From NCBI GenBank assembly GCA_026003175.1, contig BPGT01000002.1:372001-436000 (forward strand): a stretch of DNA of 64,000 nt. The letters are read 5' to 3'. Shown here piece after piece: positions 10,560 through 53,730 of the stretch. A program made the position numbers and the translations under genes. Within the stretch, counting starts at the first letter, position 1, and each line of letters begins with the position of its first letter. The notes beneath the pieces are model-generated. The model had not been told where the DNA came from. It saw only the letters and a program-made list of their open reading frames with translations, and did not search any database. This DNA is from Armatimonadota bacterium (GTDB taxonomy: Bacteria; Armatimonadota; HRBIN16).

Positions 10560-10633
10560 GTCGCTGCTCCTCCCGAATGCGAGTTCAAAACCAGATTCCT
10601 CGCCTGACGAGCGTTTACCTGCTCGCCAGATAA

Positions 10634-10722
10634 ACCTAACCCCCGTCCCCATTCCCTGTGAGGGAAGGGGGTGTAGCGCACGCACTCCCCTCTCCTTGCA
10701 GGAGAGGGGGTGGGGGAGAGGT
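10634..10722. repeat. Twin GC-hairpin repeat related to the MITE core
   Basis: Two strong hairpins: CCCCATTCCCT with AGGGAAGGGG (about 10647-10670) and CCCCTCTCCT with AGGAGAGGGG (10687-10709). They are flanked by AACCTAACCCCC and GAGAGGTT. The same order appears inside the two 186-bp MITEs at 43.6 and 50.6 kb, but the MITE ends are absent here. It lies in the 248-base gap between the aminotransferase and the zinc-ribbon gene and could act as a terminator for the latter. Confidence 0.7.
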
Positions 10723-43447: not shown

Positions 43448-43550
43448 GGGGTTAGACGGGGATTTTGAAAAAATTATTCCCCACAGGGGCACCACGTACG
43501 GGCGAAGCAGAAAGGCTATACGGCTTTTGCTTTTTCTCTTTTCACCCTCT

Positions 43551-43736
43551 GAGGGTGTTCGAGAATTGTTGAGAAGTTGGTTGTAGCGCAAGGAGAGAGG
43601 CGTTCTTGCTATCCCTGCCTTACCTCACCCCCGTCCCCTCTCCTACGAGGAGAGGGGCGTTCCCCCTTCCCTTGCAGGGAAGGGGGCAAGGGGGTTAGGT
43701 TATCTATCCATTCAACCAGCAATTTCGAACACCCTC
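43551..43736 (+). mobile_element. 186-bp MITE with 9-bp target duplication, copy 1
   Basis: Terminal inverted repeats GAGGGTGTTCGAGAATTG and its near-complement ending CAATTTCGAACACCCTC bound a 186-bp element. It is flanked by the direct repeat TCACCCTCT (43542-43550 and 43737-43745), a 9-bp target duplication. Inside are two strong GC hairpins (CCCCTCTCCT/AGGAGAGGGG and CCCCCTTCCC/GGGAAGGGGG). No transposase gene is present, so movement needs an enzyme elsewhere. The near-identical partner lies inverted at 50491-50676. It inserted just upstream of tRNA-Asn. Confidence 0.92.
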
Positions 43737-43787
43737 TCACCCTCTTGACAAAAGGGGGGATTTCTGGTAGATTCTTATGCGCAAGGT

Positions 43788-43863
43788 TCCCCGGTAGCTC
43801 AGTCGGCAGAGCGGGTGGCTGTTAACCACTAGGTCGCAGGTTCGAGTCCTGCCCGGGGAGCCA
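43788..43863 (+). tRNA. tRNA-Asn (anticodon GTT)
   Basis: The acceptor stem TCCCCGG pairs with CCGGGGA, the D arm is GCTC...GAGC, the anticodon loop CTGTTAA carries GTT, and the T arm is GCAGG-TTCGAGT-CCTGC. The CCA end is encoded (43861-43863). Its 3' side leads into an AT-rich accessory islet, a common integration context. Confidence 0.96.
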
Positions 43864-49480: not shown

Positions 49481-50316
49481 TTACTGTGTATACGCGCATA
49501 CCGGGTTCGGATTAGGATAGGGACGTGCCGGTACGTCCTCTCCCCACATTTCCGGGTCGTTCAGGAAGCGCTTGTAGTTAGTCCATTTGGCATGACCGTC
49601 GGCGAAGATGACGTTCATACCGTCGGTGTGTCGGCGTGCGCCAGCCACATTGTACCAGCGGGTTTTATCCCCGCAGTTCCCGCCAACCCCGGAGTTGGTG
49701 TCTGGGGTACCGTCGGGGTCGCAATCGGTGTCGAACGGCCACTCCATTGGGCTATAGAACAGCAGGGAGCCGTTCGAGTCCGCAAAGGCAGCGACACTTG
49801 CCGGGCGGGGAATCTCCGGCAAGGAGGCGGAGTTGAGCAGCGAACCGTTCACGCAAGCGATGCGTATAAGCCCCCGCGACACACCATAGTTTGCGGCGAC
49901 TGCCATGTTACAGAACGGCCCACCGGTAGCGCTTGGGCAGGGGAATACATAAGGACCCGAGTAGCTGGGACAGCGGAAAATCTGCGTGTTCTTGATATAG
50001 GGCTGCAGTAGACCGGGCCATCGGCAGGTGTGCAGAGGACAGTTCACCAGCACGTTCGGGTCGTCGTAGCTTGGCATACGCAGGCGGGAATAGGGAAATC
50101 CCCAGGCGAACGGAACCAGCTGCTCGTCGTAGTCCTGCGCATACTGCGCCAGTGCCAAACCAGCTGACGCATATGCGACAGACATTGCGTCTGACGGGCT
50201 TTCTCGCGCGCCCGCGAGAACACAGGGAACAGAATCGCTGCCAGTATCGCGATAATCGCGATGACCACAAGCAGCTCAATGAGGGTGAACCCTCGCCAAG
50301 AAGAGTTTTTGTGCAT
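49481..50316 (-). pseudogene. DUF1559-type prepilin-like gene, frameshifted
   Basis: The first frame starts [21 protein letters not shown] with the Gly-Phe prepilin processing site, then [23 protein letters not shown]. At about 50158-50161 the frame is lost, but the next frame continues [18 protein letters not shown]... to the H-x9-DG end (ARRHTDGMNVIFADGHAKW). One extra G (CTGGGTTT rather than CTGGTTT) would restore a 278-codon gene. Either a sequencing error or a recent inactivation. A strong promoter lies upstream and a MITE abuts it. Confidence 0.8.
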
Positions 50317-50453: not shown

Positions 50454-50482
50454 ATTATATAATCTCGTACCAGACGAGTCAA
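50454..50482 (-). promoter_or_regulatory. Near-consensus promoter of the 49.5-50.3 kb pseudopilin gene
   Basis: Minus-strand TTGACT (50477-50482) and TATAAT (50454-50459) with a 17-base spacer, 138 bases upstream of the start. The -35 overlaps the first base of the MITE target duplication. Confidence 0.75.
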
Positions 50483-50490
50483 GTATCGGT

Positions 50491-50676
50491 GAGGGTGTTC
50501 GAAATTGCTGGTTGAATGGATAGATAACCTAACCCCCTTGCCCCCTTCCCTGCAAGGGAAGGGGGAACGCCCCTCTCCTCGTAGGAGAGGGGACGGGGGT
50601 GAGGTAAGGCAGGGATAGCAAGAACGCCTCTCTCCTTGCGCTACAACCAACTTCTCAACAATTCTCGAAAACCCTC
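50491..50676 (-). mobile_element. 186-bp MITE with 9-bp target duplication, copy 2
   Basis: Inverted copy of the element at 43551-43736: same length, ends and internal twin hairpins, with only a few differences at the tips. It is flanked by AGTATCGGT at 50482-50490 and again at 50677-50685, an exact 9-bp duplication that indicates recent insertion. It lies between the pseudopilin promoter and the MFS gene. The rest of the 470-base gap (50317-50786) holds only the promoter and short leader sequences. Confidence 0.92.
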
Positions 50677-50786
50677 AGTATCGGTATGATATCGGCTGGT
50701 ATAACCGTAAGGACAGCTCTTGCCCTCGCTAAGCATTCTGGGGTACGATTCCGGCGTGCTGCTATCTCTACATGGAGGAGTTACTC

Positions 50787-52513: not shown

Positions 52514-52541
52514 GGGGCAGACCGCCCGGTCTGCCCCTTTT
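52514..52541. terminator. Bidirectional terminator
   Basis: GGGGCAGACC (52514-52523) pairs with GGTCTGCCCC (52528-52537) and is followed by TTTT on the plus strand; it overlaps the stop of the convergent gene. Confidence 0.88.
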
Positions 52542-53730
52542 AGAACTCGTACGAGTAGAACACTGCCACACCAAGGCGGCGCGCATAATCCTCTGCATCT
52601 GGCTCCGAGGTGATGTGTGTGACGACGAGAGGCAGGATGTTCGGATAGACCTCGCGCAGAGCATCCACCGTACGCCGCAGGAAGCGATCGATATCGTTTT
52701 TGGAAAGCTGTGATTTGCTTTCCCCTATGAGGATGACCTGCTCCCCATTGCGTGTGGCTATGCCGAAAATGTTCACCTCGATGTAGCGCCCTGCGCTGTC
52801 TTGCACGTACTGGCGTTTTAGCCTGCCCTCCACCCGCAGACCGTAGTCGCGCAGGAGCAGATCGGGCAGAGCCTTCATCGCCTCGTTTTCCAGCACGTAT
52901 CCCACGGTCTGTGATAGACCTCCGACCTGTTTCTGCAGGTCCTTCACCGTTAAGGCGAGGTCGCGCAGAGCCTCCTGGGTCTGGCGCACCGTCTCAGCCA
53001 GTTCACGGAACCGCTCGTCTGTCTGCTTGCGATACTCCTGGAACTCGGCATACATCTGCTGCTGTGCTTCTCGCAGTTCACGGAACCGCTCGTCTGTCTG
53101 CTTGCGATACTCCTGGAACTCGGCATACATCTGCTGCTGTGCTTCTCGCAGTTCACGGAACCGCTCGTCTGTCTGCTTGCGATACTCCTGGAACTCGGCA
53201 TACATCTGCTGCTGTGCTTCTCGCAGTTCACGGAACCGCTCGTCTGTCTGCTTGCGATACTCCTGGAACTCGGCATACATCTGCTGCTGTGCTTCTCGCA
53301 GTTCACGGAACCGCTCGTCTGTCTGCTTGCGATACTCCTGGAACTCGGCATACATCTGCTGCTGTGCTTCTCGCAGTTCACGGAACCGCTCGTCTGTCTG
53401 CTTGCGATACTCCTGGAACTCGGCATACATCTGCTGCTGGAACCGTGCGAGTTCTTCAACGCGCTGCTCGGTGCGTCTCTGTGCCTCCGCCAGTTTACGG
53501 AACCGCTCGTCTGTCTGCTTGCGATACTCCTGGAACTCGGCATACATCTGCTGCTGTGCCTCTGTTAGGCGGTTGACGGCACTCTCCAGCGATTCCAGTC
53601 GCTTGAGCACCAGGTTCTCCAGCAGCCGCTCGTATACAGTAACGATAGCCTGTGCCAGTTTCTCGGCGACTGGCTTGTCCACAGCAGCGCTCAGCTCGTC
53701 TACCAGTTCAGAAAACAGTGTCGTGTTCAT
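52540..53730 (-). CDS. Coiled-coil protein with tandem 25-residue repeats and PD-(D/E)xK nuclease-like end
   Basis: 396 residues. An N-terminal helix (about 1-55) is followed by seven copies of a MYAEFQEYRKQTDERFR heptad-rich unit, six in exact tandem, forming a long coiled coil. The C-terminal 110 residues (GRYIEVNIFGIATRNGEQVILIGESKSQ...) show a strand, then E-x-K in GESKSQ, the PD-(D/E)xK pattern seen in DUF3782-like proteins. The nuclease role is inferred. The 75-bp repeats could change copy number. The gene stands alone, between the CBS and gyrA genes. Confidence 0.8.
   Translation of the reverse strand: MNTTLFSELVDELSAAVDKPVAEKLAQAIVTVYERLLENLVLKRLESLESAVNRLTEAQQQMYAEFQEYRKQTDERFRKLAEAQRRTEQRVEELARFQQQMYAEFQEYRKQTDERFRELREAQQQMYAEFQEYRKQTDERFRELREAQQQMYAEFQEYRKQTDERFRELREAQQQMYAEFQEYRKQTDERFRELREAQQQMYAEFQEYRKQTDERFRELREAQQQMYAEFQEYRKQTDERFRELAETVRQTQEALRDLALTVKDLQKQVGGLSQTVGYVLENEAMKALPDLLLRDYGLRVEGRLKRQYVQDSAGRYIEVNIFGIATRNGEQVILIGESKSQLSKNDIDRFLRRTVDALREVYPNILPLVVTHITSEPDAEDYARRLGVAVFYSYEF
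53001..53450 (-). repeat. Six exact 75-bp tandem repeats inside the coiled-coil gene
   Basis: Units begin with GTTCACGGAACCGCTCG (plus strand) at 53001, 53076, 53151, 53226, 53301 and 53376 and look identical within each unit. A seventh, separated and slightly diverged, starts near 53493. The 75-bp length keeps the frame, so gain or loss only changes protein length. Confidence 0.92.

Follow-up and report, generated by a model that had tools for sequence, protein, structure and literature searches.

The window analysed here, 64,000 nucleotides of a contig from an Armatimonadota bacterium of the HRBIN16 lineage, holds two short elements in opposite orientation, and it raises the question of what moved them and how their landing sites were chosen. 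A sequence-only reading of the window had described the pair as inverted 186-bp MITEs with perfect 9-bp target duplications, and this description was borne out at every position given (Table 1). The two copies formed the arms of the window's longest inverted repeat. The 12-bp terminal inverted repeats of copy 1 were perfect, and the sole mismatch between the copies lay within an end, where copy 2 carried GAGGGTTTTCGA in place of GAGGGTGTTCGA. What that reading had overlooked, and what became our main finding, was that insertion targets the -35 box of promoters, together with what this entails.

Table 1. Features of the two MITE copies and of their insertion sites, in window positions.
Feature	Position	Strand	Remark
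MITE copy 1	43551..43736	+	186 bp, ends GAGGGTGTTCGA...TCGAACACCCTC; among 50 identical copies of 104 read
MITE copy 2	50491..50676	-	186 bp, inverted, single mismatch in one end
Left target duplication of copy 1, TCACCCTCT	43542..43550	+	
Right target duplication of copy 1, TCACCCTCT	43737..43745	+	final T is base 1 of the -35 hexamer
Left target duplication of copy 2, AGTATCGGT	50482..50490	+	first A is complementary to base 1 (T) of the minus-strand -35 hexamer
Right target duplication of copy 2, AGTATCGGT	50677..50685	+	
-35 box TTGACA of tRNA-Asn promoter, target motif	43745..43750	+	element-free promoter in G001 and G003
-10 box TAGATT beside copy 1, 17-bp spacing	43768..43773	+	
tRNA-Asn gene 3' of the promoter targeted by copy 1	43788..43863	+	
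-35 box TTGACT beside copy 2, target motif	50477..50482	-	empty site in G003 (L274) with the same promoter
-10 box TATAAT beside copy 2, 17-bp spacing	50454..50459	-	
GC-rich double-hairpin core of copy 1	43622..43701	+	separate dispersed repeat of the genus, carried by the MITE
GC-rich double-hairpin core of copy 2	50526..50605	-	

The host genome (4.1 Mb, 7 contigs) carried the exact 12-bp end GAGGGTGTTCGA 213 times, against a single occurrence of a reversed-pattern control, so the family extends far beyond chance. It amounted to ~105 copies, of which 104 were read together with their flanks. Length was 186 nt in 93 of these; 50 copies were identical to window copy 1, and 28 further 186-nt copies showed a one-base difference. 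Exact target duplications flanked 77 of the 104 copies and measured 9 bp (61 copies), 10 bp (11), 11 bp (4), or 12 bp (1). Both the identical copies and the exact duplications upheld the earlier claim of recent transposition, and the family has the appearance of a recent burst. The seemingly mismatched duplications of the other 27 copies were mostly explained by stacks, composite units, and one-base changes, with a true reciprocal exchange at L093 and L067. Assignment to the MITEs agreed with the terminal inverted repeats, target duplications, short length, high copy number, and autonomous partner, with the lack of a transposase gene, and with orthologous sites that were empty in relatives.

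Folded as a single strand, the MITE was much more stable than its shuffles (z ~ -8), largely because of its paired ends and GC-rich double-hairpin core. An Rfam search matched tRNA only, indicating that this hairpin-rich element is not a described RNA family. The core was a genus-wide dispersed repeat that occurred at many sites without MITE ends, sometimes in tandem, with 21 matches in 464 kb of this genome; it was also seen at window positions 10633-10722, and five tandem copies ~102 bp apart lay at L286:12632-13130. Origin of the MITE as an internally deleted IS was considered and rejected, as only the ends are held in common and the core belongs to another dispersed repeat.

Exact duplications had led to the expectation that the genome would carry, at another place, a transposase with matching ends, and it was found in an IS with the same 12-bp ends as the MITE; four copies of this IS, each 1,012 bp long, had kept the 323-aa reading frame intact. 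The encoded protein scored 30.9 bits against DDE_Tnp_1 (PF01609), above the Pfam cut-off of 23; five of its seven aligned relatives also matched this domain, and VDGTG, LLVGD, and RYRIEQVFGSVK blocks, assigned by inspection, were compatible with a DDE triad. The best NCBIfam match was the IS5-family model NF033579, at 39.1 bits, below the cut-off of 140, and we therefore named the element IS5-like rather than a member of the IS5 family. Traits of the IS903 group were present in the mainly 9-bp duplications and in IS lengths of ~1,010-1,040 bp in the genus and its relatives. In the copies read, the transposase frame extended past the IS end, with its stop codon in flanking DNA. An initial contig scan with the transposase returned no relative, while whole-genome searches did find relatives, among 291 genomes of the phylum only in this genus and one other family. 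Nothing relevant was matched among solved structures, and the predicted structure (mean pLDDT 42.6) was too poor for inferring target reading. The transposase of this IS probably mobilises the MITE in trans, for which the joint MITE-IS units described below provide indirect support. A 989-bp form of the IS, present as five copies, was frameshifted by a 23-bp deletion; as seen at L062-L066, it had multiplied without an intact transposase of its own, mostly within MITE-IS units, and seems likewise to have been moved in trans.

The landing sites of the MITE followed a fixed register. In 59 of the 77 copies with exact duplications, TTGAC overlapped the last duplication base by its first T, where ~0.15 would be expected by chance. 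The register was the same for 9-, 10-, 11-, and 12-bp duplications, indicating a fixed cut at T|TGAC and a second cut of variable position; chance as the source of the longer duplications was rejected, as TTGAC shifts along with duplication length. Measured outward, TTGAC started at offset 8 in 56 of 200 ends of this genome and at offsets 0-7 in none. Among the aligned sites, which had been pre-selected for at least 3/5 matches, the G of TTGAC was present in 58/58 and the C in 57/58. Even a 4/5 match was missing at the register in 12 of the 77 copies, some of them inner members of stacks. An ordinary MITE burst without target choice would be in line with the intergenic placement of many bacterial MITEs (PMC10969869), but this explanation is refuted by the fixed register, which recurred in four relatives, and we give it next to no chance of being correct. 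As read from these sites, the element adjoins the -35 box and leaves the promoter sequence whole. In own-genome copies, it was more commonly the right end of the MITE that faced the promoter (39, vs 19 for the left end; p = 0.012).

Several observations indicated that the motif belongs to a promoter. The spacing of -10 boxes peaked at 17-18 bp downstream of TTGAC, and a box with at least 5/6 of TATAAT was present at 16-18 bp in 51/75 sites, as opposed to 2/75 at a control distance of 30-32 bp. A same-direction ORF of at least 120 aa started within 300 bp in 63/67 promoter-side flanks and in 59/94 other-side flanks. In six promoter-side flanks, tRNA genes were located 48-58 bp from the element, as expected of a real promoter. 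The target, by these measures, proved to have the make-up of a sigma70-type promoter, with TTGACA-like and TATAAT-like hexamers 16-18 bp apart and then a gene. The promoter beside copy 2 (TTGACT-17-TATAAT, minus strand) faced a pilin-like gene at 49481-50316 (-), which was split into two overlapping frames (50316-50044 and 50185-49481) by either a frameshift or a sequencing error.

A promoter-rich set of sites could also arise if the transposase read only TTGAC[AT] and promoters were simply where insertions survive, those within genes having been lost. Insertions in essential genes would indeed be purged, and the TTGAC signal in the pre-selected sites was very strong. Under such selection, however, an intergenic TTGAC[AT] without a -10 box should be harmless, yet a -10 box (at least 5/6, at 16-18 bp) accompanied 48/71 inserted sites and 11/48 unoccupied intergenic sites (Fisher p = 2e-6), against 4/112 coding sites, with the intergenic class approximate because the gene caller was crude, and with comparison stretches picked between known copies. 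The many identical copies also left little time for selection. Selection for harmless sites, the main rival to promoter targeting, does not easily fit the intergenic comparison, and we consider it unlikely. About one-third of inserted TTGAC[AT] sites lacked a -10 box of at least 5/6, and 9/71 lacked even 4/6. In terms of promoter targeting, the strength of the TTGAC signal suggests that the transposition complex reads TTGAC directly, and the excess of -10 boxes at inserted over unoccupied intergenic sites points to a further contribution from some feature of the working promoter (the -10 region or its melting, or else RNA polymerase bound there). Guidance of the complex by the transcription machinery, whether promoter-bound RNA polymerase, a sigma factor, or the melted promoter, is a possibility that we put forward tentatively.

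Orthologous sites in relatives gave the order of events. G001 and G003 had the tRNA-Asn promoter but no element beside it, and the copy-2 site was empty in G003; as the empty sites carry the promoter, the promoter predates the insertion. An orthologous site bearing the duplication without the element, or the lack of any element with matching ends, had been named beforehand as what would speak against the sequence-only reading; the copy-2 site in G003 held a single target copy, and the matching-end element exists. The constant distance of TTGACA from the ends might have meant that the -35 box is carried by the element as a mobile promoter. However, TTGACA lay outside the duplicated 9-mer, and on one side only in nearly all copies, and the element-free promoters of G001 and G003 refute a mobile promoter at the sites examined, leaving it a vanishingly small probability.

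Because the -35 motif lies just outside the duplication, an insertion restores its own target, which can be struck again. At L068, an IS and a MITE occupied one site, with three copies of AGAGATTCAAG, one between the two elements and one on either side; at L078, a degraded IS and two MITEs had GGTTGCTAG between and beside the elements. L051 and L054 each held two MITEs with one repeated spacer, and L047 held four MITE units with shortened junctions. Stacks with equal spacers could instead have been produced by slippage or unequal recombination between short duplications, and L047 does resemble the amplification of one unit. Slippage cannot introduce a different element, however, and the mixed stacks at L068 and L078 count against it, so that we judge it quite improbable as the source of the stacks. 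Repeated insertion was followed by movement of the stacked units, as inner spacers matched those of another locus. A MITE-AGATGGAAC-MITE unit lay inside new duplications at L050 and L065 and is best derived from L047, where GTTCCATCT adjoins TTGACA; IS-AGGGGGTGG-MITE, native to L065, was found again at L066, and MITE-TCGAGCTCT-IS was repeated at L063, L064, and L067. Judged by these spacers, stacked units moved jointly to new promoters.

It had also been proposed that the inverted pair could invert the segment between its copies by recombination. In the window pair, both duplications matched, which places the 43.7-50.5 kb segment in parental orientation in this assembly. Recombination between copies was apparent elsewhere, as L093 (contig 1) and L067 (contig 3) had swapped flanks, with duplications AAGGCACCT and AGAGGCTAT that match only across the two loci. 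The rejoined first site was contiguous in G003 (591 nt at 86%) and lay ahead of a gene recognised as murA-like on inspecting the start of its translation. One reciprocal recombination could thus be reconstructed, and recombination between copies is real.

The same habit was seen beyond this genome. Ends in G004, G002, G201, and G209 had TTGAC at the same offset, together with -10 boxes, and the MITEs of these genomes differed from the window MITE in interior and length; promoter targeting is a habit shared by relatives from two families of the Armatimonadota. When 257 billion bases were scanned for the end followed by 7N and CTTGACA, 56 stretches were returned, nearly all from Armatimonadota/Fimbriimonadales records (including HRbin15 and KatS3mg016) or unnamed bacterial bins. 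The pattern was also present in one contig each labelled WOR-3 and Anaerolineae (L309, L317), which reflect either misbinned contigs or transfer. In relatives, some elements (L124, L158, L200, L213, L257, L260, and others, from HRbin15, KatS3mg016, and G002) adjoined a -35 box at either end, each with its -10 box, and their 9-mers were unequal, perhaps from two insertions at a divergent promoter pair that collapsed into one.

Taken as a whole, a recently amplified MITE mobilised in trans by an IS5-like transposase, aimed at sigma70 promoters, restoring its targets, and moving in joint units is an account that we hold with considerable confidence. The MITE would be mobilised by the DDE_Tnp_1 (IS5-like) transposase of the 1,012-bp IS with the same 12-bp ends, in a transposition complex that would pick sigma70-type promoters. 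One cut would be fixed between bases 1 and 2 of the -35 box (T|TGAC), with the other staggered 9 (sometimes 10-12) bp upstream. Gap repair would duplicate the staggered stretch, so that the promoter would retain its -35 box, spacer, and -10 box with the element directly upstream. Re-use of the restored target would yield head-to-tail stacks with identical 9-11-bp spacers, and a MITE-MITE or MITE-IS stack that transposed by its outermost ends would be carried as a whole to a new promoter. The element anatomy, the same-end partner, the register, the promoter preference, the restored targets, the unit movement, the conservation, and the empty sites are the parts of this account that can be read off the compared genomes.

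The element resembles known systems in part. IS903 prefers a symmetric 21-bp target, whereas the target here was a -35 box with one half-site. According to a table in PMC3281130, the IS903 group of the IS5 family has a length of ~1,050 bp, 15-27-bp ends, and 9-bp duplications; the IS described here shared the DDE_Tnp_1 domain, the length (1,012 bp), the 9-bp duplications, and an IS5-family model as best NCBIfam match, but differed in its score (39 bits vs 140) and its 12-bp shared ends GAGGGTGTTCGA. For the Correia, BrickBuilt, MITEAba12, and QMITE elements, an intergenic location and MITE-borne promoters have been described (review PMC10969869). Like these, our MITE is short, non-coding, and intergenic, with inverted ends and duplications; unlike them, it keeps and adjoins a host promoter. 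ISs that target REP sequences also have a specific intergenic target and avoid genes, but there the target is an extragenic palindrome (PMC1525189) and here a functional promoter. Stacked elements acting jointly recall IS30-type tandem units and dimers, in which the transposase joins the ends as an intermediate (PMC9333248), whereas here each spacer was a complete target duplication, for which repeated insertion at a restored target is the best explanation. The section on insertion preferences in the review PMC10969869 named no promoter-box target. Our literature search, partial in coverage, turned up no IS or MITE described as targeting a promoter box and no earlier report in bacteria of exact insertion against a promoter -35 box.

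The base-exact choice of a promoter that is left intact shows a route by which an element can reach >100 copies while doing little harm to a compact genome. Yeast Ty1/Ty3 and others insert upstream of Pol III genes, tRNA genes included, and spare the host. Insertion here was likewise just upstream of transcription units, tRNA genes included, with the host spared; Ty1/Ty3 are, however, retroelements guided by transcription factors, whereas such guidance is here a tentative proposal. If the transcription machinery does guide the complex, this system would be the bacterial equivalent of those yeast elements that track Pol III factors and, in two Armatimonadota families, a strategy of harmless insertion common to the whole element family. 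It is now testable by what means a small DDE transposase locates promoters and whether the machinery of transcription participates. Unoccupied strict promoter-like sites numbered 15 in 464 kb; scaled to the whole genome and set against ~48 occupied sites, this gives a rough estimate that ~1/4 of the strong promoters of this kind have a copy beside them. For many genes, regulatory input from upstream may thus have been severed or insulated. The insertion sites also provide a promoter map for uncultured bacteria, and the inner spacers serve as barcodes of jump order. Elsewhere in the window, a gene at 52540-53730 (-) contained approximately seven 75-bp tandem repeats (52924-53563) with a coiled-coil-like unit, QQMYAEFQEYRKQTDERFRELREA.
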